From Escarpia spicata (lineage: Eukaryota; Annelida; Polychaeta; Sabellida; Siboglinidae), in assembly GCA_963995525.1 (NCBI GenBank), contig OZ023213.1:46065013-46129012 (forward strand): a stretch of 64,000 nucleotides of DNA, read 5' to 3'. The translations under genes were made by a program, and so were the position numbers. Shown piece by piece: positions 8,761 to 56,509 of this stretch. The notes under the pieces are model-generated. The model was not told the origin of the DNA and did not search any database. It was given only the letters and a program-made list of their open reading frames with translations. Every line of letters begins with the position of its first letter. Position 1 is the first letter of the stretch.

Positions 8761-8835
8761 CACGATGCGTCACCGACACTCACCGACGTCACTGACACTT
8801 GTCATTAACATCAACAGTGTGAGCATCTACAGCAC
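8761..8835 (-). other. 5' UTR end and splice acceptor of the zinc-finger gene
   Basis: On the minus strand a long pyrimidine tract (CCTTTTTTGTTTACTTGTAG) ends in AG at 8837-8836, a strong 3' splice site. The 75 bases from there to the ATG contain an in-frame stop (8772-8770), so this is untranslated exon. The gene therefore probably has at least one further non-coding exon and its promoter at higher coordinates; I did not identify them. Confidence 0.6.
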
Positions 8836-8867
8836 CTACAAGTAAACAAAAAAGGTAAATGTAAAAA

Positions 8868-9190
8868 GGGAAGTTCTTGTATAGTGCATTATCCAGTCCT
8901 TAGGACTGCTCAAAGCAATTTACATTTTACTTCCTGACAAAACTGTTCAATCGAACACCATCTCAACTTTTTTGGGAAGCATGCAACCACACTGTAATTA
9001 ATGCGCAAAGACTACAAGTGCACAAATATCAACCACTGTCTACAGCCAGGTACTCAGTCATGTAGCTGAGTGAACTGGAGCAACATAGAGTGAACGAACT
9101 TGCCCAAGGTTTGATGTGGCACACATGATTTGAACCCAGGTTCTCACGATTGAGAGTTCAATGCTCTAACCACTGTGCCACTGCACTCCC
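8868..9190 (-). mobile_element. SINE family 1, copy 1 (tRNA-derived)
   Basis: Read on the minus strand, the head near 9187 looks like a tRNA gene (box A-like GGCACAGTGGTTAGAGC, box B-like GGGTTCAAATC), followed by a body shared with four other copies in the window, and a tail with AGTCCTAAGGACT and GCACTATACAAG. Tail first on the plus strand means the element lies in minus orientation. Probably nearly full length. Confidence 0.8.
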
Positions 9191-10399
9191 CAACAATAAC
9201 GCACTTTCAGAGATATTAATTACATTGTGTAAAGTGGTGGTATCTGTCATACAAAGGGAATGTGGATGTTGCTTCAAACTGGCCACTAAATCAATTGAGT
9301 CTATAGTATAGTGTTGATCAAAAATAATATTTATCAGATACAATCATTATTTAAATATTTCTTACATTCTAAATAACTGTATACCTATTCTAAAATAATT
9401 AGTATAAAATAATTTGGTGGTTTTATAGATTCTTATGAATATTCTAACATTAATAATCAAACATTGTTATCATAGTTGCACTGCTCAAAGTAGAGGAATG
9501 AAGAGAAACAAAAGAATGTGCTTAATTGATAAACAAATGCAGAATTTCACCAGGAAATCTATCTTGAAGGGGATTCTCAGTGCCAAAATACAGAAATGCA
9601 GCTTGCAAGAATAAAAAATGTCCAGATGAAATGATAATAGAATGATGTACAGTGAAAGAGGTACATGTGACACAACTTCACTGAAGGTAGATGGCAGCAC
9701 TGTTGTCAACCTGCCTTAATGTTTGTTTGTATATACGATGCAGTGTTTATTCTGTCGCAGTATCATCTGCACAGTTTTAGAATTCAATTTAATTCTCCAG
9801 GTACATGCAACAATTGCAGCCACCTCTTAAAATATCTTCTGAAATCCAAACACCAGGTACGTCAATTAATTTATTCTTTCACTACACCTGAGCACTTAAA
9901 AAAGTAATAACATTCTGCAATTTCTCTCCATAAGTTCAACATACAAAATAAACTCCCCTGAAAAATATGATCTAAGACTCATTGGCAGTGCATCTGTCCA
10001 CTAGAAATTTCAATCAGGGAAAGTCTAAAACTGACTCACTATTCATATTGTATGCAGTGAACCCAGAAGTACAGTAGTGGTCTGACCCCACATAAACCAT
10101 CTATAAGCACACCTGGTGATGTCATCCAGTGATTACTGGGCAAACTTGGTTTAAAAATACCAATGGCTGATAAACCAAAAGGAACCATCCTTCTTATTAG
10201 ACCCAGCTGCATGTATGTATGTACACAATCTGAAACCACAGCTAGCAAGAGTGGTTAAGGAGTTGTCTTTTCCCCATACATGGATCAACTGCATCCATGA
10301 TGAAACTATTTTGCAGCAGAACCCATAAGAACTTGCACACAACTGAAGACAAACACAGCATTATGAGAAGATAGCAATGCCATAGAACATAACACAATA
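9191..10399. other. AT-rich interval, no gene recognised
   Basis: Only short ORFs without family features; the peptide near 9160-9190 is a translation of the SINE head. Nothing else was recognised. Confidence 0.4.
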
Positions 10400-10660
10400 A
10401 AGTAAAGGTCAGTCCTTAGAACTGCTCAGTGTAGCTTACAGTTTACTTCCTGGCAGAGCCACGCTGCGATTAATGTGCGAAGACTATTTGTACACAAATA
10501 TCCACCACTGTCTATAGCCAGGTACTCATTCATCCAGCTGAGTGAACTAGAGCAACATAGAGTGAACAAATATGGCCAAGGTTCAAAATGGCGGCGCAGG
10601 ATTCAAACCTGGGTTCACTCGATTGAGTCCGATGCTTTATCCACTGTGCACCACATCAAA
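10400..10660 (-). mobile_element. SINE family 1, copy 2
   Basis: Matches copy 1 through most of its length: CAGTCCTTAGAACTGCTC near the tail, CACCACTGTCTATAGCCAGG in the body, and a tRNA-like head with GAACCCAGGTTTGAATCC-type box B on the minus strand. The tail and middle carry deletions. Confidence 0.8.
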
Positions 10661-28669: not shown

Positions 28670-29013
28670 TTGGCGACGAGAGATGCGCGAAACAGAACCA
28701 AAAGACAAGTGTGTGAGTAATGTCGTCTACCACAGAGCACAGAGACGTGTGTAAAATGCGCATATGAAGAAACGGTTAGTGTTAAGTCCGTTATGAACGT
28801 GTTGTTCAATTTTAATCCGTTGGCCGTGTTGTCAGCCACGAGAACCATACCACAGACAGTGCTGTGTGCAAAAATGAGCGGGACCCACGCATACTGAGAA
28901 CATGTGACATTCGTATCAAGTCGGTTGTTTACTGTGTAAAACTAGTAAACAAGCTAGCAGTCGTGATTCAGTAGACTGTATCTGCATGGAGTAGATTTGT
29001 GTAGGATGCAGTC

Positions 29014-30162
29014 ATGACAACGTCATTAAATGTGCCGTGCATACAGCCTTTTGAAAGCGAACTTTCCGATAGTGACGCCTCGTTAGGTCCCAAATGGGAT
29101 AAGTGGCTACTCAGATTCGAGAACTATCTGTCCGCCATCGCAGTAAATGACGAAGGACAGAAGAGAGCACTGTTGTTGCATGCAGTTGGCAGTACAATAT
29201 TCGATATTTTTGTCAACCTGCCGAACAGAGGGACAACTTATGAACAGGCCAAAACAGCGCTAACAGCACACTTCAAGCCGAAGGTTAATCGTGAGTATGA
29301 ACGTGCCGTGTTTAGACGCATGCGTCAAGAGAGTGGCGAAAAAATTGACGCTTACCATACCCGTCTCCGCCAGGCAGCGGCCAGTTGCGAGTTCAACGAC
29401 ATTAACGGTGAAATTAAATCACACGTGATACAGACAACCACAGACTCAAAACTGCGTAAACAAGGACTGACAAACGATGCGTTGACGCTAGGCGACATAA
29501 TCGAAGCGGGTCGAAATAACGAGCTAGCGCAAGCCCAAAGTTTGGACATTGAAAAATACTTGACAGGCATCCAACAAGATGCCAAGACAATCGGTCGCAC
29601 GTTCGGACAGTCGAAACGTAGAAAACCACAACATGGTGTAACAAAATGTAGATACTGTGGGAAAGGTTGTCCGCATGTAGGAGGCAAGGAAACTTGCCCG
29701 GCATTTGGTAAACAGTGTTTTGTGTGTTATGGACGAAACCATTTTGCTAATTATTGTCCTAAGAAAGGTCAGAAAAATACCACAAACAAACAGTTTGTGA
29801 GGAAATCAGTTCGTGCAGTTAGTGATGAGGTTGAGGATTACGTATTTACAGTAGGGACTGTAACTGATGAAAGCACGGAGAGTGATGGTTGTGAAAATAG
29901 TATAAATGATGTTTCCGCAAACACTGAGGGTGATGTTTGTGAAAGTAGTATACATGGTGTTTACAATAGCACTTTTGTAGTAAAACCGCCGAAGTTCAAA
30001 ATCGAGTTTGAAAAGTGTTCAGTGATGATGACAGCTGATAGTGGTGCATCGTGTAGTCTAATTGATGAGAGAACGTATCAGAACAAATTCAAGAGTGTTC
30101 GTCTTGAAACATATCATGACAAACTGAATGCATATGGTGGTACACGTATAGTAACCATTTGA
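29014..30162 (+). pseudogene. Element A gag and protease
   Basis: It opens at an ATG 345 bp after the LTR. The N-terminal half has gag-like LGPKWDKWLLRFENYL; two cysteine/histidine knuckles follow (CRYCGKGCPHVGG, then CFVCYGRNHFANYC), then an acidic linker, and the aspartic protease motif TADSGASCSLID near residue 345. The frame ends in TGA at 30160-30162 inside the protease, and coding-like sequence continues in the same frame to 30375, so the TGA is a nonsense mutation. Gag packages the element RNA; the protease cuts the polyprotein. Confidence 0.85.
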
Positions 30163-31206
30163 AAGTTTCATAGTACTATTGTGTGTGGTAAGAAAACTGC
30201 TAGTGATGTTTTCTATGAAGTGAAAGGAAACTGTGGATGTTTGCTCAGTGTAAATATGAGTCAAAAACTCAGACTCATTCAGGTTGCAGATCATGTGGTG
30301 CATAATGTCGGAAATACTGAGTGCCTAGAAGTGAAGAAATTCCCGAAGGTATTTGAGGGTATTAAAGAACTTTGAGGTAAAGCTTCACATCAATGAAGCT
30401 ATCCCCCCTGTTGCTCAGCGCCACAGAAGAATCCCTTTTCATGAACGTCAAAAGGTTACAAAGGAACTGTTTGAGTTGAAAAGGAATTATGTGATCGAAA
30501 GGGTAGAGGGTCCAACTCCCTGGGTGTCCCCAATAGTGGTGGTACCGAAACCCAAAAGGCCCGGTGAGGTTCGTATCTGTGTCGATATGCGACAGGCGAA
30601 CAAAGCAATCATGAGAGAGCGACACCCGTCGCCTGCAGTTGATTACATTGTTCAAAAACTGAACAATGCGCGTGTGATCAACAAGATTGATCTAAGATCA
30701 GGCTATCATCAGTTGATGCTTGCAGAGGAGTCTCGCTATATCACCACATTCTCCACTCATGATGGTTTGTGGCGATACAAACGCCTTAATTTTGGTATTT
30801 CGAGTGCGAGCGAAGTGTTTCAGAATGTTGTTGAAATGTCATTGATGGAAATGACGGTTCTTTCAATATGTCCGACGACATATTTGTGTTCGGTAAGGGC
30901 AAAACCAACGAGGAAGCGTATGCCGAACATGACAAGAGTTTGGATCAGGTGCTGAAGAGGCTCGATGAGAATGGACTCACAGCAAATCTTGCCAAGTGTG
31001 AGTTTCGAAAGCCAAAGATGGAATTTTACGGTATGATGTTCTCAAAGAACGGAATCGAACCAGATCCGAAGAAAGTAGAAGCACTCCTAGAAATGGAGCC
31101 GCCTGTCGATGTGGGAGAAGTGCAGAGTTTGTTGGGAATGACAAACTACCTCGCAAGGTTTATTCTCAATTACTCGACAGTAACAGCACCACTGCGGAAG
31201 CTCACA
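30163..31206 (+). pseudogene. Element A reverse transcriptase, truncated
   Basis: The frame shifts at about 30370; the N-terminal part (30353-30850) has VPKPKRPGEVRICVDMRQAN and DLRSGYHQL. A second shift near 30850 precedes the SDDIFVFG catalytic block and NYLARFILNYSTVTAPLRKL (to about 31200). RNase H and integrase are missing because the element is cut at about 31206, where the minus-strand element B begins. The product resembles the mag-type (K02A2.6-like) lineage of Ty3/gypsy. Confidence 0.85.
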
Positions 31207-34200
31207 TGCAAGAAACAAGTTGACGACGGTTGCGACGGTAGCGCGCGCCGTTCACCTCAACCTCGTAGGATCTGTGTCCCAACACACGGCGACAAAGCCC
31301 CAGTGACCAGCGTCGATCACCTGGCAACCTCATTCGGATGTTGTCACCAGCGTGTAGCTCCTTGAGCTTCTTCGTGCCTCGGTTGTAGTGTTTTGTCTGA
31401 GCTTCATTCTGTGAGGCCAGCTTCTCTTCTGTTGTAGGTGGTATCGCTGGGCGTAATAGCTCCTCAGTTATCGGCTGGAGGGTCCTTGTACGCCTTCCCA
31501 TCAGCCGTTGGACCGGCGATGTTCCGATATACTCGCTCGGTGTGTTCCTCCAGTCTAGCAGCGCTAGCAGTGGGTCTTTGTGGTCTTCTCGTGCTTTCTT
31601 GAAGAGTGCTTTACACGTCTTCACTGCGTTTTCCGCTTTGCCGTTCGATTGTGGAAACCTCGGGCTAGAAGTGATGTGCTTGATCTTCCATAGTTTCACA
31701 AATTCCGTGAAGTCTTCACTTGCGAATTCCGGTCCGTTGTCTGTCATCATAACAGAAGGTATTCCATGTCGAGCGAATTGCGCTTTTAACTGGTTTATGA
31801 CAGACCGTGACGTTTTCTTGTGTAACTCCGCTACCTCGAAGTATTTGGACCAGTAATCGACTATGATGATGAACGACTTTGCGTTGAACTCGAACAGATC
31901 TCCTCCTAACTTCTCCCACGGACGAGATGGCAGTTCGTGTGGATGTAGGGGCTCACGACACTGCTGTGGCGTGAATGTCTGACAAGTGCTGTATCTGGAC
32001 ACATAGTATCTGACGTCAGCACTCATCCCCGGCCAGTACAGCACTTCTCTGGCTCGTCGAACGCATCCTCCCGTTCCAATGTGGCTGCTGTGTATCTGCT
32101 GCAGCATATCCTTTCTCAGTGACCTCGGAACGACCAGCTGCTCGCCTCGGAACAATAGTCCTTCAGCTTCAACCAGGCTGCTGCGCTCGTCACAATATGG
32201 CGATGCTGCTTACGGACATTCTCTTCTCGCAGGCCATCCCTGTCGTATGGTCTTGATCAGCGCCTGAGTTTCTTCGTCTGCGGCCACTTTCTCCCTGAAC
32301 TCGTCTTGTTTCGTCTTGGTTACCGAGATGTTCTCGTGGCTCACTGATTCTAGTGCGCAAATCTCACAGTTCTCATGCTGGCCGCCCTCTGTTGTGTCTC
32401 TGTAGGCGCGGCTGAGCGTGTCGGCGATATACATTAGTGGACCTCGCTTGTACTGTACGTCTAGGTTGTACTTATGTAGAACGAGACACATGCGCTGTAG
32501 CCTCTTCGGTGACTTGTGAATCTCTTTCTTGAATACTGTCTTCAGCGGTTCGTGATCTGATTCAATGGTGACCACGTCTCGCCCATAGATGTACTGATCG
32601 AACTTGTCACACGACCACACGATTGCTAAAAGTTCTTTCTCTATTTGGGCATAACGTGTCTCTGTGTCGGTCAGAGCCCGCGAAGCGTACGAGACTGGCT
32701 GTCCGTTCTGCATTAACACGGCTCACAGACCACGTTCGCTCGAATCAAACTGGATCGTGACCGGTTGCTTGACGTCATAGTAGCGCAATACTGGTGCTTT
32801 GGTGACAAGCTGCTTAATGGCATCCATCGCTGCCGTGTGCGAGTTTGTCCAGTTGAACTCTCCGTCTTTGTCATCAAGTCTCCTAAGAGGTTCAGTCATC
32901 TCCGAGAGTCGTGACAGGTACTTAGACAAGTAGTTCACCATGCCTAGAAATCTCTTCAGAGCGTTTACATCGGCTGGCTCCGGCATCTCTCTGATTACCG
33001 ATATCTTCGTTGGATCGGGCTTCAGGCCGTCCGGCGTCAGTATGTGACCCATGAAGGGGACGCTTGCTTGTCCTCGCTTCACTTTGCTGCGGTTCAGCTT
33101 CCATGCTCGGCACTTCTCGAAGAATGCGCGCTCATTGTCTTCTAGGCTCTGATTTACCTCTTGCTCCTTCTTGCCGAATCGCGCTATTAGAAAATCGTCT
33201 GCGATGACCTCTGTTCCGTCAAGGCCTTCAACGAATTCGTGCATCGTTCTCTGCCAGACTTCCGGCGCTGAGCTTATTCCGAAGGGCGTGCGTGTCCAAC
33301 GAAACCTTCCAAAGGGCGAGTTGGAAGTCGTTTTGAAGCTCGACTCCTCGTCCAGACGCTTCTGCCACAATCCCTCCTTGGCATCGAATACGCTGAACTT
33401 CTTTGCATCAGTCAGACGTGTCGCGACTTCCTCGATTGTCGGCATCTGGTAGTGCTCGCGACAGATCGCTCGGTTTAAATCTCTTGGGTCGATACAGATC
33501 CTCAACTTATCGGGCTTGACGACAACACGCATGCTCGACACCCAAGCTGTAGGCTCGGTGTCTGGCTTGATGATTCCTCGCTGCACCATCTCATCAAGTT
33601 TCTCCTTGATTCTCGCTCTCAATGGCACTGGCACACGACGAGGTGGGTGTATCACAGGTGCAACACTCTCGTCTGTGACGATGTGGTATTCGCCAGGCAG
33701 CTCGCCCAGACCTTCAAAGACATCTTTAAATTCTGTGAGTAAATCGTCTTTTTCTTTCACTGCCGCTCGCACCGCTTTCCTCAGCGATGATCGTGGGGCT
33801 GGATGTGGACTGTCACTGTAGCCTGACGACACGCGCGTTCCTGACGTGTCGCTCACTGCGTGCACGTTTCTGTCACTGTCGTTGATCGTCACGAAACCCA
33901 TCTCTGTGCAGGTCTTCAATGACAACAGTGGCATAAAGTCATCGTTCGTGATGTTGAAGGTCAAATTGCTTTGTTTGCCTTGTCGCCATACCGGAAGTGT
34001 CACCCAACCAAATATCTGGTACTTTTCTCCAGTGTACGTCCTGATGTACTTGTGGGTACAGTGTTGCAGCTTCTTCATTTGGCGGTCCCTTGTCGCTCTG
34101 CAGTACGTCTCTCGTGGAAGCACGTTGCATTCTGCTCCAGTGTCCATTTGGAACAGAACCCGGCTACTCGGAGATCCAACTTCTACTGTGATGACTGCCT

Positions 34201-35104
34201 TCGACGCTCTGTCTTCAACAAAACCAACGAAGAAGATTTCCTTTGTCGTGCGGACGGCTGACGCCGTCGCCCTGCACTTGAGCTGGAAATGGTTCTTCTT
34301 TCCGCACTTACGGCACGTTTGGCCGTATGCGGGACACTCTCTTTTAGCATGGCGGCGTCCACAGTACTTGCAGTCTTGTTGATGCTGCTCCGTTGGTGCT
34401 CTTGGCTTCGATGTGGTGAACCTTTGCTGTGTGCGGTTGTGTGGTGTGCTGGCTGCTTGTCGCGTCTGCCGTTTCCTGACGAAGCTCTCATCCTGCGTGG
34501 CACCGTGCATAACCTGCAGCTGAGCACTCGTTTGCTCGGCTGCCTTGCAGATGTCGATGGCTTTCTCCCGGGTAAGGTCATTCATGCGCAACAGCCGCTC
34601 ACGCATCTTGTCGTCACGCAAACCCAACACGAGCCGATCGCGGATGATCTCGTCTGGTGTGATGTCTTCATGTGCACAGTTCTTCGCGATGGTTCGTAGA
34701 TCCGTGACGTAAGCTGATATCGTTTCGTCGACCGACTGGTTCCGGTTGTTAAACCGATACCGTTCGTAGATCACTTGTGTGCGTGGCTCACAATATCTAT
34801 CAAACTGCGTTAGCACATCGGTTACACACTGTTCATTTTGACTGTCCACCCAAGTGTCATACACTTTCGCCGCATCCTCTCCTATCACAGACAAAAGTGT
34901 GGCGACGCGAATTAAGCCTTCTTGCTTATATATGCCAGTAGCTATTTCATAGCGCTGCCATATTTTACGCCATTGCTTCGAGTTTGTGGCCAGATTATTG
35001 TCCATGATCAATGGTCGCGTGGGGTGGTATGTTTGCGGGGGTATCAACATCGCCGTTGCACTTGCCCCACACCCGGTAGTGTCGGCTGTGTTTGACTCGG
35101 CCAT
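31207..35104 (-). pseudogene. Element B gag-pol, one frame with two stops
   Basis: Start ATG at 35104. In order: gag, two zinc knuckles (CKYCGRRHAKREC, CRKCGKKNHFQLKC), aspartic protease (QMDTGAECNVLP), reverse transcriptase with VIADDFLI, RNase H, and integrase with the HHCC part (HSSHIGTGGC, CQTF) and DDE residues (IIIVDYW, MMTDNGPEF, NGKAENAV). All blocks are in the same frame. It is broken by TGA (32725-32723) just before the RNase H region and TAA (32212-32210) between RNase H and integrase. It ends inside the last integrase residues at about 31207, where element A sequence begins. Gag and pol in one frame without a shift signal is unusual but known in some lineages. A different family from element A. 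Confidence 0.9.
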
Positions 35105-35335
35105 GTTGTACAATCTGTGTTGTAGTAGAGTCAAAAGGTCACGTACCTTTGGTTGTCGCACGAGTCACAACAACGCTCGACAAGCCTACCGCGATGTCTG
35201 CATTGCGCTGTCAGTCGGCGTGATGTCACAGTCACGGCGAAAATGTTCAAAGTTCACTTTTGCAAGCTGCATGCTTCAATGCAAAGTTCGTCAATAACAC
35301 ATACTGATCCTGGTTCGTTAACCGACGATATGACG

Positions 35336-39135: not shown

Positions 39136-39139
39136 AAAA

Positions 39140-39456
39140 AAGAAGGTAAGTTCTTATATAGCGCAGTATCCAGTCCTCAGGACTACTCAAAGCACTTACT
39201 CCCTGGCCGACCTGTCCAATCGAACACCATCTCAACTTCTCTGGGAAGCATCCAGCCACGCTGCAATTAATGCGTGAAGACTATTCGTACACAAATATCC
39301 ACCACTGTCTATTGCCAGGTACTCATTTATACAGCTGAGTGAACTGGAGCAATGCATAATTAACGAACTTGCCCAAGGTTCGACACTGCCGCACAGTATT
39401 CGAACCCGGGTTCTCTCGGTTGAGAGTCCGAAGATTTAGCCACTGCACCATGGCGC
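39140..39456 (-). mobile_element. SINE family 1, copy 4 (best-kept tRNA head)
   Basis: On the minus strand the head reads ATGGTGCAGTGGCTAAATC (box A) and CCGGGTTCGAATACTG (box B), so a tRNA origin is clear. Body and tail match copies 1-3, ending in AGTCCTGAGGACTGGATACT and GCGCTATATAAGAACTT at about 39150. Essentially full length, about 310 bp. Confidence 0.88.
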
Positions 39457-41480: not shown

Positions 41481-42613
41481 GCACAGAAGATGCACCCAGC
41501 TCTGTGCATAACGAACTCGGCATGGATTCAGTACCGCCCATGTTATTTTTTTGATGTCAACGACTGAGATACGGTTTCTTCCCGACACTGGTAAGCTCTG
41601 GCAACAGTTTCTCGTGAACTTGATCGATGTGTTCCAATATTTGTTACATTTGCGTAGACATACTGGTGTTACATGAATTGGTCATAGTTAACGGAATATG
41701 TCATTTTGCAAAGAAACCGGATCAAATCGTTATCAAATGTAACAATATTCTAAATCACTAGCCGTTATTTAATCAATGCAATGCAATGCTTACAATTTTG
41801 TAAAAAACAACACTGACAACCAAAGCTATCTCACAAATTGGTCATGGCGGCTATAAATAGCCTCGTTCTACAGTAATACTTAACACATTAATAAACTGCA
41901 CAGAGCCGTTCGTTAACTTTCCTGTAGTATTTAAATAATTGCATGTATTAAAAAAAAACGTCAAACATGAAGTATGTTTCTATCACCATCATAATTTTTT
42001 ACGAATTCTTATGTGCTAGTGCTGCCACATTGTGCACAAAGTACTAAAAACGTCTCATTAACTTTACGTAATTTTTTTGAAAATTTAAAATTATTTGAGA
42101 GCCACTGAATTATACTCAATGAAAAATATATCCAACTAATACCAGTAAGAATTCAAGGCATATGCTAAGGGTGACCAATTTGTGATAGTGACCAAACCAT
42201 ATAAAGTCATAGTTTTGGCTAAGAAAATAAGTCACAGGAAATAAAGCCACAACATAATTTCATTCAAAGACTCTACACTAAGTACAAAGTTTTGCAATTA
42301 TTCACTGATAATTCAGCAAAATAAAGTTTGATTATTCTGAAGAAATTCTGCCATAATCTTGCATATTCTCACAGATAAATGAACACAACAATGTTTGATG
42401 TGCGATTACAAAGAGCATTTCTGAAGAAATTGTGACAGTCTTTACATTTTCATTGATATTTGAGCACAAGTGAGATTTATCGGTGACGTTTTTTCTCAGA
42501 CTTAAGCACTGAAGATGTTGTTATCTTTTTAAGTTTAAGTTAATTTTGATTATTTAAACGAATATGTAATATTTCCACTCATATTAAATACAGAGAACTC
42601 TAAATATAAAATA
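41481..42613. other. AT-rich interval, no gene recognised
   Basis: No domain, repeat or RNA gene was recognised. Confidence 0.35.
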
Positions 42614-42645
42614 GTGAATTTATTTTGGTTCTTTCTCGGACGGCA

Positions 42646-42883
42646 GTATCCGTGTGGAAATGGATTATGTCCAGAAAAATTCCAGACTCGAGATCGATAT
42701 ACTAGTATTGTATGCCCTTGGATGGGTACTAATGCTGCATTCCAGTGGGCTCGTTTATATTATAAACACCACTTGGTGAACTCAAAATTTCAGGAGCAGC
42801 CCGAGTTTATGACTGGTAAATTTATGCAAGTAGGTCAAGTAGGCATTGGGAAGTTATACTCAAGATTTACAAGAGCTCATTAG
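42646..42883 (+). CDS. Unidentified ORF or exon next to the 6.5-kb element
   Basis: The frame (open from 42614) encodes YPCGNGLCPEKFQTRDRYTS, WMGTNAAFQWARLYYKHHLV and EQPEFMTGKFMQ, which looks protein-coding in composition. A possible acceptor (GGACGGCAG) precedes 42646 and possible donors (GTAGGT) lie at about 42835-42845. The frame ends at TAG, whose last bases form the CATTAG direct repeat bordering the element at 42884. I do not recognise the family. It could be an upstream exon of the gene at 43.3-46.2 kb or a remnant of another element. Confidence 0.35.
42878..42883 (+). repeat. Left copy of 6-bp target-site duplication CATTAG
   Basis: CATTAG stands immediately before the left inverted-repeat end TATGGAACG (42884) and again immediately after the right end (49368-49373). 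Confidence 0.7.
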
Positions 42884-43378
42884 TATGGAACGATATTAGG
42901 GCCATAATTCAACAATGCTACATTGTTGATTTCTGACTTTCGTTTATCCATTTACGCCGAGATTGTCGAATTCTGACTTTCGATTATCCCTTTACGCTGT
43001 CATTGTGCAAGATTTTGGTCAAATAATTCACTAGAATGGCGTTTGGTCAAATATTTCTCCAAAAGATTTTCTCCAAAATATTTTCTCGAAAAGAAGTTCT
43101 CGAAAAGATTATCTGGCACAAATTGCACTCAGTGACCTAAGGTAAGCTAAGCTGTGCTGCCCCCTAGCGAACTACACCAACTTGCAAATACTGAAGTATC
43201 CCTTGCAAGTCAGGCCAAAGCAATTATATAATTGCTTTGGTCAGGCCTTGCGCTGTCGTAATGTACATACTACTTATATCGAGCATTTTTCACCCACGTT
43301 ATGAGCTGTTTTATCAAAGTTGGAGTTTAGAAGAACTCAAAGTCGATGAACGGAAGAAACGAAGTGCCAAGCAGTCTG
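42884..43378 (+). repeat. Left terminal inverted repeat of the 6.5-kb element
   Basis: It contains a 40-bp direct repeat (TTCTGACTTTCG at 42931 and 42971), a run of TTTTCTCCAAAA and TTCTCGAAAAG motifs (about 43055-43110), a 26-bp perfect palindrome at 43215-43240, and the first part of the exon-like frame SWSLEELKVDERKK. Homology with the right arm ends after CCAAGCAGTC. Confidence 0.85.
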
Positions 43379-43407
43379 CCAGAAAACGCGAATTGTTTGT
43401 CAGGAAG
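43320..43407 (+). CDS. Unidentified spliced gene, third-last exon
   Basis: It encodes WSLEELKVDERKKRSAKQSA and RKRELFVRK, a highly basic, probably helical segment. The donor is AAG/GTTGGT at 43408; the acceptor (TTTTATCAAAG at 43319) is weak, so the start is uncertain. The donor phase fits the next exon exactly, giving an open frame across the junction. The first 59 bases lie in the left inverted repeat, and the right arm carries the same coding segment on the other strand with one in-frame stop. Confidence 0.4.
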
Positions 43408-43789
43408 GTTGGTACTGTGTGTGAGCGATAATTCATGATGTTTCGAAAACTGTCAATCATAATATTTATTCGTACTATAACGTGTACAATTCAGTGAAAG
43501 CAACGTATACATCAATCTAATATGTATATAAAACGGTCAGTGCAGCCAGTCTCGTCTATGAAGCATGAGCGTCTATGCCATGAATGGGGGAGGCTGTTTT
43601 TAAGTGAATATTATTAAACTTTAAAGATAAAAACAGTGTGGAGTCTCCCATCACAAAGTGATTTGTTTTGTATTTTGTTGACATTATGTAAATTGTTATT
43701 GTAAAATTTGTATCTGAGTATTTGTTTTCATATTTGGTAGTTCTAGTTGTTTCCAGCGCTTGGCAATGTTCTATTAACTGACTAGTCTG

Positions 43790-44078
43790 TATTATTGTGG
43801 TTACAATGTAATGGTCTTATGAGGTCTCATTCTTTATATGCTGGCACTGAGGGTGGTCACTACCAGGATGCTTGTCGTCCTCAATGGTTCTTTTACGTCC
43901 CAAATTGAGACGGGACCTACATTAATGTGATCAACGAGCCACGAGGGATACACAGTCCCCAATTTTGAGTCAGATTTTTACACCAAATATCATACCTGCT
44001 CGGTCCAAGTTTTCGAACTCAGAGCACTGGCATGCCAGGCGGATGTGCTAACCACTACACCAGCCACACTCTCTGTAT
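43790..44078 (-). mobile_element. SINE of a second tRNA-derived family
   Basis: On the minus strand the head reads GGCTGGTGTAGTGGTTAGC (box A) and GAGTTCGAAAAC (box B); the body continues with ATTTGGTGTAAAAATCTGAC, GGTCCCGTCTCAATTTGGG and ACGTAAAAGAACC. It differs from family 1. It lies in an intron of the exon set inside the 6.5-kb element. Confidence 0.75.
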
Positions 44079-44338
44079 AATTTGTTTCTGCTGTTGGGAT
44101 AAATTAAATGCATCCTTACCTTACCTAAGATGGGAGGGTGTGTTTCTATATTTCATAAAAACCAGCACAAACCCTTGGAGTAACATACACTATCGAGAGG
44201 AATGCGGGGGTACCAGCCCAGCCTGATCACAGTGCTTTCTTCTATATCATGAGCAGTCTTACTCCAAAACCACTATACTTTATCTTAGTCACATATTGAA
44301 CATAAGTTGGGATAATGTCATTGTTTTTCATTTTACAG

Positions 44339-44505
44339 GTTAATGAAGAGGAGCTCAGCATGAAACTGCCGCAGAATAACATGTATAGGGACGTACATGG
44401 TGGTATGCACCAACTACCCAAATTTACACTGGGGAGTCTAGAGGAATACTTATCCCAGTACGGAAAGAAGCTGGAGGAAAAGAGCAAGTCTCTATACAAA
44501 GAAAG
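44339..44505 (+). CDS. Unidentified spliced gene, second-last exon
   Basis: Clear exon: acceptor TTGTTTTTCATTTTACAG ends at 44338 and a consensus donor AAAG/GTGAGT starts at 44506. The 55 codons plus 2 bases encode VNEEELSMKLPQNNMYRDV, GGMHQLPKFTLGSLEEYLSQ and YGKKLEEKSKSLYKE. The C-terminal half is charged and probably helical or coiled. It joins the flanking exons in phase. I do not recognise the protein family; it has no transposase feature. It lies inside the 6.5-kb inverted-repeat element. Confidence 0.6.
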
Positions 44506-44879
44506 GTGAGTTATCTGAACATTAAACTAAAAGGACTGTAGGATTAAAGGTAAATGCGAATAACCATATGAGCTTAGTAGTTTGTACGTCCCTGTCAAAT
44601 ATGATACTGCCTTGATGAAATAATAGTTTTCTTTGTCAATGGATACCAGCAGGCTTATTTGTAAGAGGTTTGGCAAATTTCTATGTGTTAAATGTAAGAA
44701 CAAACATTCAAAACCTAACAATAAATTATTCAGGACCAGTATTCAGGAATACCCTGCCTCATAAACTTAGAATACTCCTGACCATTAACCAGTTTAAAAG
44801 AAACCTAACAGCTCCTTACTCGTGAATTATTATTGATATTACATTATATACGTGTCTGGGTAAATATATATATAGGTGA

Positions 44880-46180
44880 AGCACAATACTGGGCCAAAAA
44901 AAGAGGACTGGACAGCAAAAACAAAGTCTTAGATGGTAACCAAAATAAATCTACACCTAAAATTAAAGATAAGATATTTTTACTCACTGTTATGTGGCAC
45001 AATGCCAAGTGAAGTTCACGATGAAAGTTACATGGTGTCTTTTAACAAAAATATGAGAATGTGAAACACTTCAGAAATCAAAATTTGCTTGACTGATGTA
45101 TGCTAGTACCTCATCAGAATCCAACCAAGACTTTTAAAATGTTAAGAATGATCAGAGCACTCTGGACGTGAAATGGTGGACACTGTAACTTACGTTATCC
45201 ACCAAATTGTCCACAACCAACATTTGTTTAAACAACAATAAACAGGCAGGATGCCTTTTTTGTGTCTCTTCTTTCTTCATGGGCCTAAGATACAGCACAA
45301 ATGTTATCAACAGGAACTGTCCACAAAGAAGCTTGTTATGGAGTAAATATAGCATATTTTAATATGCACATTTAAATATACATTTGTTTTCATACACATT
45401 TTAATAATAACATCTTGGACATGAAAAACTCGGTTAACTTCTGCACTTGTATATTATACCCAGCGTATCAACAAAGACATATTAATACACTTTTAAAAAG
45501 TGTTTAGCATATGGCGATGACTCTAAAATAAATTTATAAAATAAATGATTCATTCTTGAAGAAGGTAGACATACATATTATGAACCTTTGAATACTTGAC
45601 GAGGAAAATACACTGTTAGAAAATACACCTCATCTTGTCATTTCCAACATACACTTTGATCATTAAACCTCAGGCTTAAAATGTCAAACATGAATATGTG
45701 TAGTAGTTACACATGGCAGACAGTTACATGAATTTATATACTGAAAAAAAAAAAATATATAAATGCACTTTATTGATTAGCAGAATTTAAATCAGTTAAT
45801 AATACTGACTAAGATCAAGCGTCACTGTAATGAAATTGAACAATTTAAAATTGCTGTAATGACAATAAACACCTAGTAAAGAAAAATAGTTAACATACAC
45901 CGTTTTGAAAAATAGCATAATCCACTAATGTCTGCATGCTGTATCAACCCACCCCCTTTCTCCACCCGGTAAACACTGACTGTTCCCAAGAAGTAAGATA
46001 TCAAGATGTATAGATGCAGCTGTAGTAGAACATTTCTTGCTGCCTTTTTCTTGTGAAATGCTGCAGATCATACATGAAACATTATTTTATATTTACTGAT
46101 TATGACAATGAACAACTCCATAATTATTTCCTCCCAACGCTACTATGATGCCTGTTTTTGTTTACTGAATATATGTTTTT
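44880..46180. other. Intron-like AT-rich interval
   Basis: It lies between the second-last and last candidate exons. Nothing with coding features was recognised. Confidence 0.4.
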
Positions 46181-46188
46181 CTTTACAG

Positions 46189-46201
46189 GAGATTGAACTA
46201 G
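46189..46201 (+). CDS. Unidentified spliced gene, last coding codons
   Basis: Acceptor TATGTTTTTCTTTACAG ends at 46188. The next 13 bases complete the split arginine codon of the previous exon and read R-L-N then TAG, so the predicted protein ends YKERRLN. The phase match and the good acceptor support it, but it is very short. Confidence 0.5.
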
Positions 46202-47860
46202 TGTGCTTAGTACTACTAGCTCTCCAAGTTAATATGGCTGGGCAGTTGTAAGTCCAGGATTTTGGACAAGATTCTACAGCCATGCAATACGCTGCATATT
46301 AACAGTTTGTCATGTGAATGTCCACCGAGTGATTCCAGTTGTGTCGTGAGTTGCATCCATGATAGATTCTCCAGTGCCAAGGGGTGTACACTGGCTTCCA
46401 GATCAGTCAGTTAGCTTGACTGACTGGAAACCAATGTAGAATGCAGGTTGACATAAGAATGTAGTGACGCCTGACTAGCTCTACAATTGGTGATGGAACG
46501 GTGGGTGCCAGGTCTGGCAGTTATGGCATGAGTCTTCGGGCAACAACTTTCAACGCTGTGAGAGAGGTTCAGTGTTGAGCATTCTTCGGTGAACTACATC
46601 GGTTTGGATATCGATGACATCACTGTATGTTTTCGCTATCTTTGATGGTACTGCATACCAGCTTCCCGACTTTTTGCTGTACATCTGCATCTACCTATAC
46701 CGAAGAAAAAGTGACAATTAGCATGGCTCTGACATGTATGATATTTTTATACGTGACGACACATTTATCAAAAGTCAATAATACAAGGTATTTGTATTCA
46801 ATTCAACTATAACTTTTACCAGTGTCCTTGAAAAAATACGTGAATTATCCAGCATTGTTATAGTGTTAGGGTTTCATTGTCTTTGTGTTGCTGATAGTCA
46901 GTGGCAGCCAGCTGAGTTCGTGCAACATACACCAGGCACTTGTTATGTACAACACAAGTTTGTGATGAAGTAATGGTATTGAAAGCCTTTTTACATTTTT
47001 CTGCAACAGTATGTTGATACACTGGCAGCAGCATTTTACTTGTTTAAATTATGTATGAATCATGAGGACTGTTATATATTTTTCATGCCATGTATCATCT
47101 TTCTAAATTATTCTTTTTTATCACTATTTTATATTTTCACAAATAATTTACATTACATTTCACATGATAATTAAACAACACCTAAGTAAGGTTAGTTCTG
47201 ATATTGTGTACTATCCAGTCCTCAGGATTGCTCAAAACACCATCTTGACTTACGTGGGAAGCATTAAGCTGAAATTAATATGCGAAGACTATCCACCACT
47301 GTCTGTAGCAGGTACTCTTCATACAGCTGAGTAAACTGGAGCAATGTCGCATGTAGTGATTGTATATGTAATTCTCAGTCACATAGGGATGACCCTGTCT
47401 AGTCTAGTCACTATTTTAAGTTCAACTAAACATCTTTCTAAGTAATTTTTTCTCATTGGTTTACATTTTATGGGTATTAAATATTAAAAATTGTTGTTAA
47501 ATACACATAATTTTTTAGTCACTAATTTTGTGAGTTGTAAACATATAAGGTATGTATAAACTACAACTAGCATTTGATATCACATGTACTAACTAGTGTT
47601 GTTTTTTTGCAACAAAGAATCGTGATAAAAGTAATATTTTTTTTTTTTATATGTACCTGACATTTTTTCAACCTCTTCCTAATTTTTGTTTCTATTGTTG
47701 CTTTGCATATTATGTGCATGTGATGTGTATGTGATATTAAAAATTATTACATTATGCATATCAAGTGCAGTGATTGTACCTGTAGTTGTATTGTGCTTTT
47801 CATAATTTTGTAGTCAATCTTATCAAATAGTTTTAATAAAATGTTTGTACTTTAAATTGT
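46202..47860 (+). other. Probable 3' untranslated region with poly(A) signal
   Basis: No coding signal follows the stop. AATAAA at 47835-47840, followed by a T-rich stretch, is a plausible poly(A) site. A SINE family 1 copy (47190-47350) has inserted in this region. Confidence 0.4.
47190..47350 (-). mobile_element. SINE family 1, copy 5 (truncated)
   Basis: It matches the other copies in CCAGTCCTCAGGATTGCTCA, CACCACTGTCTGTAGCAGG and ACAGCTGAGTAAACTGGAGC. The tRNA head and part of the middle are missing. Confidence 0.75.
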
Positions 47861-47959
47861 CTTTACTTTAATTCACATGCATTTCTAACAACAATATGCA
47901 ATTTAACGAGGACACCCATTACTGCAAAATCCTCATGCAGACAAACAAAACATTCACAT

Positions 47960-48850
47960 ACAGGGGTGGATCCAGAAATTGAGCCTAGCCGAACCAAATA
48001 ATTTTGGCGCTACCGAGCCGCCATAACTATAACTTCAGCCGCTTGGCTGGAGTGGTGATATCGGAAGACAGGGGGGTGGGTGCTAATGAAACATACTTGC
48101 ACTGTATATACGAATTTATGTTTGCAACAGAAATATTCCAAATTAAATAAATAGACCATTAAGTTCATAAATTGAACTGCAAATTAAATGTAGAATGCAA
48201 TTGAAAGTTTCATAAAAGCCTTATCAACCAAAGATGGTGTAACTACCCTAAGATTGGTCAGAATAAAACATAATTGTTAAAACCGTTTTTTGCTGAGTCG
48301 GTGGCATAAGTCCGGGAACATCCCATCGCCGGCGTAAATGCCATAAAATAAGAACGTGTTGTATAAACACTTGCGAACACTGTACAATCAACAAAAATGG
48401 CTTGATCGAGGCACCAATCTTGAGGGTCAGAGGTCAGTCTTGCCCAAATTCGCGAACACAATATTATTATATGAAGTTTCCACTTCCAGATGCATGTCCA
48501 AGTAAGTGTTGCTAGTTTTGACTCCTTCGACTCGAAACCAAATTCAAAATAGTTCGCAGTTTGTTTATTAATTTCAACAAAACGAAGTAGCACAAGTGCA
48601 CCAATGAACTAGGGTATTATAGTGGATACTTGATAGCATTGCTTTTTTGGGAAATTAGTCAGAAAAGCAAGGAGCATAAAAATCGAACTGATATTGCAGC
48701 TTTAAGCTATATAGTTGTATTATCACCAGTTAGTCTGATATTAATTGCAATACAACAAACCCCCTCTTTGTTTCAAGTTTTAACTTTGTTTTATTTTAGT
48801 TTCAAATGAAATGCTCAGAGCTGCATTGCACAGTGGTTTGTAAGTTGACT
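47960..48850. other. Internal part of the 6.5-kb element, no gene recognised
   Basis: AGGGGTGGATCCAGAAATTG at 47963 resembles the end of a hAT-type MITE, but I found no partner end. A minus-strand open frame at 48593-48258 (111 codons) shows no known feature. Confidence 0.3.
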
Positions 48851-48852
48851 GC

Positions 48853-49367
48853 TTGGCACTTCGTTTCTTCCGTTCATCGACTATGAGTTCTTCTAAACTC
48901 CAACTTTGTTAAAACAGCTCATAACGTGGGTGAAAAATGCTCGATATAAGTAGTATGTACATTACGACAGCGCAAGGCCTGACCAAAGCAATTATATAAT
49001 TGCTTTGGCCTGACTTGCAAGGGATACTTCAGTATTTGCAAGTTGGTGTAGTTCGCTAGGGGGCAGCACAGCTTAGCTTACCTTAGGTCACTGAGTGCAA
49101 TTTGTGCCAGATAATCTTTTCGAGAACTTCTTTTCGAGAACTTCGTTTCGAGAAAATATTTAGGAGAACATTTTTTGGAGAAAATCTTTTGGAGAAATAT
49201 TTGACCAAACGCTATTCTAGTGAATTATTTGACAAAAATCTTGCACAATGACAGCGTAAAGGGATAATCGAAAGTCAGAATTCGACAATCTCGGCGTAAA
49301 TGGATAATTGAAAGTCAGAAATCAACAATGTAGCATTGTGGAATTATGGCCCTAATATCGTTTCATA
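48853..49367 (-). repeat. Right terminal inverted repeat of the 6.5-kb element
   Basis: Inverted match to 42884-43378, including the 26-bp palindrome (48983-49008) and the exon-like segment. It differs by scattered substitutions and some length differences in the TTCTCGAAAAG-type run. The coding-like segment here has TAA where the left arm has TAT. Confidence 0.85.
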
Positions 49368-49373
49368 CATTAG
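49368..49373 (+). repeat. Right copy of target-site duplication CATTAG
   Basis: Directly after the right inverted-repeat end (TTTCATA); identical to 42878-42883. Confidence 0.7.
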
Positions 49374-53312: not shown

Positions 53313-56300
53313 ATATATATATATATAATACTTACTTGTGCCCATCGTCCCTCCTGGGGCATAGGCCGTCGACAACAGCTCTCCAGAGTCCTCTGTCCTG
53401 GGCTCTTGTTTCAAGCTGTCTCCAAGTGTGTCCTGTCTTCTTGGTGTCTGCATGGAGGTACCTTCGCCACGTGTTCTTTGGACGACCTCTTTTTCTCCTG
53501 CCTTGTGGGTTCCATGTCAGAGCCTGTCTGGTGATAGTTGATGCTGGTTTCCGGAGCGTGTGACCAATCCATTCCCATCGTCTTCTTCTTATTTCATCTT
53601 CGGCAGACAGTTGGTGTGTCCTCCTCCACAAGTCAATGGTGCTGATGGTGTCTGGCTAGCGGATCTGGAGGATTCTTCTTAGGCAGTTGTTGATGAAGGT
53701 CTGTACTTTCTTGGTGGTGGTGTTAGTTGTCCTCCATGTCTCTGCTCCATACAGTAGGACTGACTTCACGTTGGAGTTAAACAGTCGGATCTTCGTGTGT
53801 AATGACAACAATTTGGAGCTCCAGATGTTCTTGAGCTGTATAAATGCTCCTCTCACCTTGCTAATCCTTGCTCTAACATCCACGTCTGTGCCACCCTGCT
53901 TGTCGATGATGCTACCCAGGTATGTGAAGGCCTCTACCTCTTCAAGTGCACTCCCTTCCAGTGTGACTGGCTCAGTGCTGGCTGTATTAACCTTGAGGAC
54001 CGTTGTCTTTCCTTTATGTATGTTGAGACCCACTTGTGAGGAGATGGCTGCCAGTTCAGTGGTCTTCTCCTGCATCTGCTGGTGGCTGTGGGACAACAGT
54101 GCCAGATCGTCGGCAAAGTCCAAGTCCCCCAGTTGCGTCCACAGTGTCCACTGGATTCCATTTCTTCTCTGGGTTGTGCATGTCTTCAGTATCCAATCGA
54201 TGGCCAGGAGAAAGAGGAACGGGGACAGCAGGCAGCCTTGTCTAACTCCAGTCTTCACTTCGAAGCGGTTCGTTTGCTGTCCTCCATGGATTACTCTGCA
54301 GCCTGTTCCTTCATAGCTGTTCTTAATCAAGTTGACCAGTTTGGTTGGTATGCCATAATGTCGTAGTAGTTTTCACAGAGTCTCCCTGTCTACGCTGTCA
54401 AACGCCTTTTCGTAGTCAACGAAGTTGATGTAGAGCGAGGAGTTCCACTCCAAGGATTGCTCTACTAAGATGCGCAGTGTTGTGATCTGATCTACGCATG
54501 ATCTGTTCGGGCGGAATCCAGCTTGCTGATCTCTCAGCAGTGGGTCGACTGCATCTTTCATTCTCTCCAAGATGATTCTGTTGAACACTTTCCCTGGCAC
54601 TGACAGAAGTGTGATTCCTCTGTAGTTGGAACAGTTGCTGAGGTCTCCTTTCTTGGGGAGTTTTATGAGGTATCCCTCTCTCCAGTCTGGTGGCACCTCT
54701 TTTTTTTTCCAGATCTTTCCAAAGAGAGGGTACACTAGTTCCACAGAGATGTCTGTATCTGCCTTGAGTGCTTCTGCAGGAATCTCATCCGGTCCTGCTG
54801 CTTTGTTATTCTTCAGCTGTTTTATGACCCTCCTGATTTCTTCCTTGGTAGGCTTGTCACACTTGATGGGTAGGTCCGCTTCTGCTGGCTGTATGTCTGG
54901 GGGGTCCGGTGGGACAGGTCTGTTCAAAAGTTCTTCAAAATGTTCAGCCCATCTGTTGAGCTGTTTCTCAGTTCCTGTGATGATCTTTCCTTCCTTGTTT
55001 TTAACTGGTCGTTCCGGTTTGCTCTGCTTGCCTGATAGTTTCCTGGTGGTGTCGTACAGCTGTCTCATATTTCCGCTGCCTGCAGCTTGCTCTGCCTCTT
55101 CTGCCAGGCAGTCAATGTAGTTGCGCTTGTCTGTTTTTACACTCTTCTTTACTTCTCTGTTGGCTTCTGTCTGCTCTTCCTGTGCCTTTGCCTTTGCTGC
55201 TCTTCTTCGACTGTTGTTTACTGCTGATTTCTTCTCCTTCCGCACTTGGATCCTGCGCAAGGTTTCTGCTGTGATCCAATCTTTCTGTTGCTGTTTCTTC
55301 AGGCCAACCACTTCTTGGAAAGTTGATGTCAGTGTCTTTTTGGTGTTCTGCCACTGGCTGTTCAGGTCAGATTCTTCATCATGCAGCTCTTGTAGTACTT
55401 GGAATTTGTTAGCAAGGTTCAGCTTGTATTCCTCTCTTGTCTGTGGATCTTTCAGGAGGCCGACATTGTACTTTCGTCTCTTTGTTGCTGTCTCCATCCA
55501 ATTTTTCTTTAGCTTGAGCTCCAGTCTAGCAACCAGCAGATGATGGTCAGATGCAACGTCAGCTCCCCTCTTCACTCTTACATCTTGAAGTGACCTCCTG
55601 AATATCTTGCCTATGCAGTTGTGATCTATCTGGTTCTCTGTAATGTGGTCGGGTGACACCCATGTAGTCTTGTGTATCCTTTTGTGTGTGAAACTGCTGC
55701 CTCCGATGACCACCTTGTTCAGTGCACATGTGTCCGCAAATCTCTCTCCATTCTCGTTCATCTCTCCAACACCCTGGGTTCCCACCACTTCTTCATATCC
55801 GTTGTTGTCCATTCCAATCTTCGCGTTGAAATCTCCCATAAGGATGTTCACATCCTTTTCTCGGCACTTGTCCAAGATGCTTTGTAGGCTGCTGTAGAAC
55901 TGGTCTTTGGTTTCTTCATCACTATCGTTCATTGGTGCGTAGCACTGGATGACATTCATCTTGATTTTCTTTTTCTTTGTTCTGAAGGATGCTGTGATGA
56001 TTCTCGGTCCATGCGCTTCCCATCCTATCAACGCCCTCTGTGCCGATCTTGATAGCATGAGTGCTACACCTTCAGTGTGGGGGGAATCGTCTTCTTCATG
56101 TCCCGAGAAAAGTAACATCTCTCCTGTAGGTATTCTTCTCTGTCTTGACTGTGTCCATCTTGTCTCGCTGATTCCCAGCAGTGCAAGGTTGTAGTTTTTC
56201 ATTTCCGCTGCTACTTGTGCTGTCTTTCCTGTCTGGTACATGGTCCTCACGTTCCATGTTCCCATATTAATTTGCTTGGTCGAAAGAAGGGTGCTCGGCC

Positions 56301-56509
56301 TTGTGGCTTCCGTGGTCTCTCGGCTTTCACCACATGGCGTCATAGGTCCTCGAGATGAAGACCCTTCCTCTTCCAGGCACGTGTTCTCTGTAAATTCTGT
56401 TGTCGACGTTTCTGTAGCAAGTAGTTTTTTACGAGGTGGGGGTGCTAGCCCCACGCTCAACCCTCCTCCTTTCTCATCCGGGCTTGGGACCGGCCACGGC
56501 GGAGTTATT
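53313..56509 (-). mobile_element. RTE-type LINE, nearly complete
   Basis: One frame of more than 1000 codons runs from about 56500 to 53332. The 3' end is typical of RTE: the stop (TAA 53334-53332) is followed within a few bases by a (TA)n run (53313-53327). Another (TA)n run (56510-56526) abuts the 5' end, so the target-site duplication is likely a TA repeat. Only two stop codons break the frame. Confidence 0.85.
53332..56460 (-). pseudogene. RTE endonuclease/reverse transcriptase, two stops
   Basis: The first ATG is near residue 39 of the open segment; the frame is open further upstream (56460 is a TTG), so the true start is uncertain. In order: endonuclease (MGTWNVRTMYQTGKTA, LLGISETRW, GDFNAKIG, ASDHHLLVARL), a lysine-rich linker, reverse transcriptase (NYRGITLLSVPGKVFNRI, FVDYEKAFDSVD, GVRQGCLLSPFLFL, catalytic LDFADDLALL), then the C-terminal [14 protein letters not shown] and [10 protein letters not shown] blocks. 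The frame is interrupted by TGA at 54375-54373 and TAG at 53658-53656; in both places the family normally has tryptophan, so one G-to-A change explains each. The RTE enzyme nicks DNA and copies its RNA at the nick. Confidence 0.9.

Follow-up and report, generated by a model that had tools for sequence, protein, structure and literature searches.

The block at positions 42884-49367 of a 64,000-nucleotide stretch of the genome of the siboglinid annelid Escarpia spicata (here called the window; C10:46065013-46129012 of the 1.06 Gb host genome) is one shortened copy of a multicopy mobile DNA family. An earlier note on this stretch had described the block as a transposed unit with terminal inverted repeats of about 500 bp and CATTAG flanks, carrying the end of a spliced gene in three exon-like segments. 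The comparison of this copy with its relatives elsewhere in the genome suggests that the family probably arose when a mobile element took up part of a gene for a putative SWIM zinc-finger protein.

The element in the window and its exon-like segments

The limits of the element are exact. It begins at 42884 and ends at 49367, and identical CATTAG hexamers stand at 42878-42883 and 49368-49373. The arms of the inverted repeat, 42884-43376 (493 nt) and 48847-49367 (521 nt), differ by 10 substitutions over 493 positions and by one 28-nt insertion or deletion, which bears out the repeats and flanks described before and makes the transposed unit real. Short tandem subrepeats and a 26-bp perfect palindrome are present in each arm. 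The window was screened for ends of the form TA[CT]G[GA]..[CT]C[AG]TA lying 80-20,000 bases apart, with the same 6-bp flank on both sides and 12 or more of 20 end bases matching, and the element was the single pair returned. Its left end reads TATGG, and its right end, read inward, reads TATGA, sharing four of the five letters of TAYGG. A comparison of the ageing of the arms inside and outside (7/198 vs 3/295, p=0.098) was not used. The features of the element are listed below (+ or -, strand; 0, no strand assigned).

42878..42883 (0): left target-site duplication CATTAG, identical to the right copy; the 6-bp duplications of other family copies differ
42884..43376 (+): left arm (493 nt), starting with TATGG
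42920-43006 and 43054-43114: tandem subrepeats in the left arm, of 40 bp and 14 bp respectively
42884..43329 (+): arm proper, unmatched in the two arm-free relatives
42884..45356 (+): stretch forming the full terminal repeat (~2.4 kb) in longer copies
43215..43240, copy 48983-49008 (0): 26-bp perfect palindrome, holding the sole TATA[AT]A motif of 42884-43407
43330..43403 (+): relic of exon 1; CAG/GAAGGT here where relatives have CAG/GTAAGT and CAT/GTAAGT donors, with one base fewer just upstream
44339..44505 (+): exon 2 (VNEEELSMKLPQNNMYRDVHGGMHQLPKFTLGSLEEYLSQYGKKLEEKSKSLYKE...); recurs across the family
46189..46201 (+): exon 3, 13 nt with stop, adds RLN
47180..47350 (+): decayed copy of a dispersed repeat; relatives lie at 39136-39360, 8860-9090 and 10330-10560
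47835..47840 (+): AATAAA, kept in 7/7 extracted copies
48283..48285 (0): deletion junction 1, contiguous in 0/23 other loci
48846..48847 (0): deletion junction 2, contiguous in 0/23 other loci
48847..49367 (-): right arm, 521 nt, outer end inward TATGA
49368..49373 (0): right target-site duplication CATTAG

The splice scores rest on a splice-site matrix that was not trained on the host organism, and most of the training set behind the codon table consisted of the window's retroelement frames. On these measures, exon 2 is the only strong internal exon in the 64 kb, under strict and relaxed thresholds alike. Its acceptor belongs to the top 0.07% of AG sites, its donor to the top 0.02% of GT sites and its codon score to the top 1.4% among 493 open windows; dinucleotide shuffles of the element equalled it in 0 of 300 cases under the strict thresholds and in 1 of 300 under the relaxed ones. 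The acceptor of exon 3 ranks in the top 0.2%, and both this acceptor and the exon sequence are kept in six of seven extracted copies. For exon 1 as the earlier note drew it (43320-43407), the acceptor ranks at 51% and the donor in the top 5.8%, and a higher codon score is reached in a different frame, which holds a stop. Of the three proposed exons, the second and third are borne out; the first, with its poor acceptor and weak donor, does not hold in that form. The proposed poly(A) signal at 47835 is a real AATAAA, but from exon 1 to the right end there are 21 AATAAA/ATTAAA sites in all.

The exon peptide has no notable relative in Pfam, NCBIfam, PHROGs or PDB. The protein database returned two matches only: P0001 comes from the window itself, and P0002 equals the product of exon 2 in copy L049 of the same genome. 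A search of this database for longer proteins and another with the peptide of the left flank found nothing, and the viral, prokaryote-genome and plasmid collections gave no match. A first exon starting from the ATG at 43261 inside the arm was dropped, as a projection across 22 copies (insertions left out) gave a valine codon at this point in 17 and a shared downstream stop in 9. The left flank holds an open frame, 42539-42883, whose stop codon falls exactly in the left CATTAG; its composition is non-coding, it has no convincing relatives, and it was treated as a chance frame. The dispersed repeat represented at 47180-47350 (~200-300 bp) has several copies in the window; longer family copies also contain it, at a different place.

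The family in the genome and its longer copies

A search of the host genome for further copies of the arms, which the earlier note had suggested, gave at least 42 matches with the arm query (40 of 423 candidates scored), and the exon-2 query gave at least 150, none of them below 89% identity (150 of 257 candidates scored); these numbers are lower bounds, and they include both ends of some elements as well as the palindromic pair L016/L017. Many of the family matches sit as inverted pairs. Arm sequence lies within ~1.5 kb of exon 2 at 17 of the 20 fetched exon-2 loci, and the three loci without it are L031, which is broken up by other sequence, L040 on C10 and L046 on C2.

Eleven inverted pairs were examined, comprising the window copy, nine fetched pairs and one further pair. 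An exact 6-bp target duplication is present in six of them, and all six are different (CATTAG, TGCGTA, GGTTCG, AACATT, CAAAAC and GGAAAT). Three of the remaining five match at 5/6 bases, one has mutually reverse-complementary flanks and one is without a right end. TATGG stands at the left end of all nine fetched pairs and at the right end of eight, and also in L052, L053 and L054. A full copy, C11:51033901-51045863, spans 11,963 bp with GGAAAT on both sides, as judged from its ends, the middle not having been fetched. The outer flanks of L016/L017 (C14:48364013-48381268) are mutually reverse-complementary, as in a fold-back duplication or an assembly artefact. One short contig, C686 (L032, L035, L036, L041-L043), carries three exon-2 pairs of equal score, possibly as a tandem array.

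The longer copies, C13:23880366-23890918 among them, measure ~10-12 kb. Their terminal repeats extend to about the point matching window position 45356, and in three of five measured copies they are ~2.4 kb long and hold both exon 1 and exon 2: 2476/2430 nt on C13 and 2540/2530 nt on C2, as a single piece each, and ~2.4 kb in two pieces on C3. The other two are shorter, with 892 nt on C5 and 704 nt plus a separate piece in C14_7k. The interior of the longer copies consists of a region A, which holds a further exon, a reversed counterpart of window 48847-48283, a region B and a stretch matching 48284-45356. Both junctions at which the window copy departs from this arrangement were sought in 23 other loci, some of which stop short of the region, and neither was found contiguous in any of them. 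The window copy is apparently a derivative with two deletions, the second of which reduced the right repeat from ~2.4 kb to 521 nt. The inverted repeat ends 59 bases into exon 1 because the second deletion cut the right repeat at that point. This overlap had been reported correctly, but it is a deletion edge seen in the window copy alone, and it illustrates how a single genomic copy can mislead.

The SWIM gene and its state in the copies

The further exon of region A, located at L011 2709-2965 and here called exon 3A, scores 9.5 at the acceptor and 11.1 at the donor and follows on from exon 2 in phase. Among 10 copies, its AG is kept in all 10 and GTAAGA in 8, and 6 are free of stops. Two of the loci without an arm, L040 (C10) and L046 (C2), with their neighbours L055-L058, hold exon 2, exon 3A and region A in colinear order. 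The exon 3A of the C2 locus, with X at its stop, matches the Pfam SWIM domain (E=1.4e-4, 21.8 bits vs a cut-off of 19.6), so that the motif lies in the exon after exon 2; the family's own exon 3A, which is 2 codons short, gives no Pfam SWIM match. At least 151 matches to exon 3A, ranging in identity from 100% to 42%, were found in the genome (150 of 226 candidates scored). A divergent open homologue, L063, has an uninterrupted frame, given as 490 aa by the genome search (801 bases were fetched); it shows 40% identity along 108 aa that span the junction of exon 2 and exon 3A (E=5e-24). Since L063 aligns across this junction, the join of the two exons is ancestral, and the gene is predicted to encode a protein of the SWIM zinc-finger kind. 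The segment therefore does not represent a gene's 3′ end, as had been proposed: beyond exon 2, the longer copies carry the SWIM exon as the next part of the gene, and exons 1 and 2 belong to the terminal repeats of the family.

The similarity of the arm-free relatives begins at 43353 by blastn and near 43330 by eye, and this point is likely the capture breakpoint, its position being approximate. In these relatives, exon 1 ends at the point of 43403 with a strong donor (CAT/GTAAGT, 8.7, and CAG/GTAAGT, 12.5, vs 1.5 for CAG/GAAGGT of the window), which is gone in the window copy. A SAP-like reading of the exon-1 region of the C10 locus was dropped, as the strong donor fits another frame. A cluster of SWIM exons at 75-79% identity, between the family and distant SWIM genes, lies at C1:63.10-63.38 Mb and could show the source. 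Past the block that they share, the arm-free loci L055 (C10) and L056 (C2) carry arrays of short-period repeats, of ~91 and 31 bp by match spacing.

The protein was under no visible selection during amplification. Changes in exon 2 are distributed as N30:S11:stop0 (nonsynonymous, synonymous, stop) vs 34.9:11.8:3.2 expected from the adjacent introns (23 rows including the window), and those in exon 3A as N22:S10:stop2 vs 31.0:11.3:2.0 (10 rows); L001 and L005, which are the window itself, L003 (=L014) and L007 (=L011) were dropped from both counts, from the row counts of the exon-2 splice signals and from the junction and copy-conservation counts, and L002, at the place of L028, also from the exon-3A count and from the junction and copy-conservation counts. 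At the exon-1 donor point, no GT remains in 24 of 29 family ends, and GT is kept in 5 (L001-L003, L005, L007, L029, L030, L033, L039, L044, L047, L048 and everything from L059 on were excluded, as duplicates of other rows or by choice). The three-exon message of the earlier note is probably a non-working gene, because substitutions are unconstrained and the exon-1 donor is lost both here and in these 24 ends. Past constraint is visible for exon 2 alone, when the window is compared with each arm-free locus (3/167 vs 30/486 in the introns, p=0.024; 1/167 vs 29/576, p=0.0065).

Elsewhere in the window, an uninterrupted 1102-aa frame with C2H2 zinc fingers occupies 5464-8769 (-). Frames for LTR-type gag, reverse transcriptase and integrase lie on both strands at 29005-35164 and 54376-56508, along with a further reverse transcriptase/endonuclease frame.

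Affiliation, origin and meaning of the family

The ends and duplications of the family agree with those of the IS3EU superfamily, which is described by TA..TA and TAYGG..CCRTA termini and 6-bp target duplications in PMC10045372 and PMC12730594. As in IS3EU/GingerRoot elements, the copies have TA..TA ends, TATGG at the left and at 8/9 right ends of other copies, and duplications of 6 bp. Members with extra genes exist as well: TET/JBP dioxygenase and alpha-kinase genes are reported from IS3EU elements of fungi (PMC12730594), and Styx, an IS3EU-related fungal element, is reported with two additional co-opted coding sequences (PMC10853768). Unlike those of IS3EU/GingerRoot, the copies studied here have no transposase that could be seen, and their ~2.4 kb terminal repeats are full of another gene's exons. 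No transposase domain was found in six frames of the window copy, where the sole Pfam line up to E=1 is at chance level (E=0.13), nor in L011 2400-5489 (six frames) or L012 1-2400 (minus strand), and no search for an autonomous partner was made. Styx shares the 6-bp duplications, the co-opted coding sequences and degenerate copies mobilised by intact ones; it differs in encoding an integrase-like transposase, and the accessible text of PMC10853768 does not mention genes within its repeats.

Gene-carrying DNA transposons of animals, the Pack-TIRs, provide a second comparison. These are mostly hAT and TcMariner elements (87.2%), in which the duplicated piece has a median length of 224 bp, and the main text of PMC8277862 does not contain the term 'IS3EU'. 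Like the present family, they are DNA transposons with gene pieces, some of them made multicopy through transposition. Here, in contrast, the piece measures ~3.4 kb, contains several exons, lies partly in both terminal repeats and has its exon 2 at 150 places or more. For Pack-TIRs a source locus is expected elsewhere in the genome; the colinear arm-free loci on C10 and C2 were found, neither of them an intact gene. Plant Pack-MULEs, non-autonomous copies of Mutator-like elements (MULEs) with gene fragments, come close in another respect, as acquired sequence enters their extended terminal repeats (PMC3310237, PMC8903248), but they belong to plants and to another superfamily with 9-11 bp duplications.

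Some other superfamilies can be set aside by their ends. The ends found here are TATGG..(C/T)CATA with 6-bp duplications, which fits neither Polintons nor typical hAT elements. Polintons end in AG..CT, and hAT duplications are 8 bp long. The comparison with hAT was made by ends and duplications, and a title in the reference list of PMC12730594 points to hAT subgroups with 6-bp duplications. In the literature searched, which leaves out Repbase and most subscription papers, no IS3EU element was found whose repeats hold captured host exons.

Taken together, the family is probably best explained by a non-autonomous IS3EU-like element which captured part of the SWIM gene, carried the exons into both terminal repeats and amplified. 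We infer here the direction from gene to element, the spread from end to end and the action in trans of an IS3EU transposase. The captured gene would have been either a host gene or the gene of another element. A founder element would long ago have taken up ~3.4 kb of it (the end of exon 1, exon 2, the SWIM exon and the introns) near the point matching 43330. The start of the captured piece, adjoining one end of the element, would then have been copied to the other end, so that each terminal repeat of the longer copies, at ~2.4 kb, would include exons 1 and 2, much as gene pieces are described to enter the extended repeats of MULEs (PMC3310237). A transposase from elsewhere may mobilise the copies in trans and thereby make the 6-bp target duplications. 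The window copy would subsequently have lost two inner stretches, and the carried exons would be passengers, changing without visible selection.

Several observations weigh against this explanation. The superfamily assignment is based on ends and target duplications without a found transposase, the right end of the window copy deviates from TAYGG, and the genomic counts are non-independent. Both arm-free loci are damaged and alike only over a limited block: the C2 locus has a stop just before the SWIM motif, and the exon 3A of the C10 locus, one SWIM cysteine short, gives no Pfam SWIM match. These loci could be old element copies without ends rather than an intact host gene. No Pfam match was found for L063 itself. 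Between the C10 and C2 loci there is no exon deficit (exon 2 4/167 vs introns 25/546, p=0.27), and between the C10 locus and the family exon 3A is not less changed than its flank (17/256 vs 23/358). At exon 2, the majority of splice signals in the family remain intact, with the acceptor AG in 16 of 20 rows and the donor GT in 19 of 20. Four ends of the 74-codon class have AC (L049, L050) or GC (L052, L053) as their exon-2 donor; GC is a rarer but usable splice donor, and the donor of this class was not counted as dead. Given the 5 of 29 ends with an exon-1 GT and the intact exon-2 signals, splicing may occur in some copies.

The exons of both terminal repeats in the longer copies would also fit a different origin, in which the family itself possessed the SWIM gene from the start, with a promoter lying in the terminal repeat and a product that served transposition or an accessory role, and the arm-free loci are remnants of old or related elements that have lost their ends. 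The wide range of exon 3A relatives and the published IS3EU elements with accessory genes (PMC12730594 and PMC10853768) speak for it too. We regard this origin as unlikely, while taking it seriously, for the arm-free loci have a better exon-1 donor and in one case a full SWIM motif, they look older than the damage in the family, and the block that they share begins abruptly ~0.45 kb inside the arm. Moreover, the amplification proceeded although most copies lack both the exon-1 donor of the relatives and any constraint. An assignment to MULEs, suggested by the long repeats and captured exons, both known from MULEs (PMC3310237), and by the SWIM finger, appears very improbable. It draws on a MULE transposase domain in one copy on C12 (Pfam, E=6.9e-7, 30.1 bits vs a cut-off of 27.6), but the frame is part of a foreign insertion interrupting intron 1, a blastn search with it gave no match in the other loci then fetched, and L052 and L053 are also without it. 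Ownership by a MULE was rejected on this ground, and the 6-bp duplications differ from the 9-11 bp that the same source gives for MULEs. In the C12 copy (L049:1-1043 with L051, C12:12013200-12025000), the nested MULE frame stands near frames that recur inverted in L051, and there is a run of 200 N. Finally, exons 2 and 3 and the AATAAA lie within the element, as they would if a single element had captured the 3′ end of a host gene. This version is scarcely credible, as exon 2 occurs at 150 places or more, exon 3 and the AATAAA recur in 6/7 and 7/7 extracted copies, and the gene runs on into the SWIM exon in longer copies. Among the options left by the earlier note, the capture of a gene part is thus the better one, the 3′ end taken by one copy falls away, and a working gene of the element's own is probably not present.

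The probable capture of SWIM exons by the family has a wider, and more tentative, meaning. The family may be a gene-capturing ('Pack') IS3EU family in an animal, with SWIM exons in both of its long repeats, where two facing 5′ gene parts could splice to two tails, the SWIM exon and the RLN-stop, and at least 150 exon copies would have been seeded. A gene piece could accordingly join the terminal repeats of a DNA transposon and multiply with them, and no earlier case of this kind was found for the superfamily. Should splicing of the exons persist in any copy, the family would act as a distributor of a single splice-ready exon.

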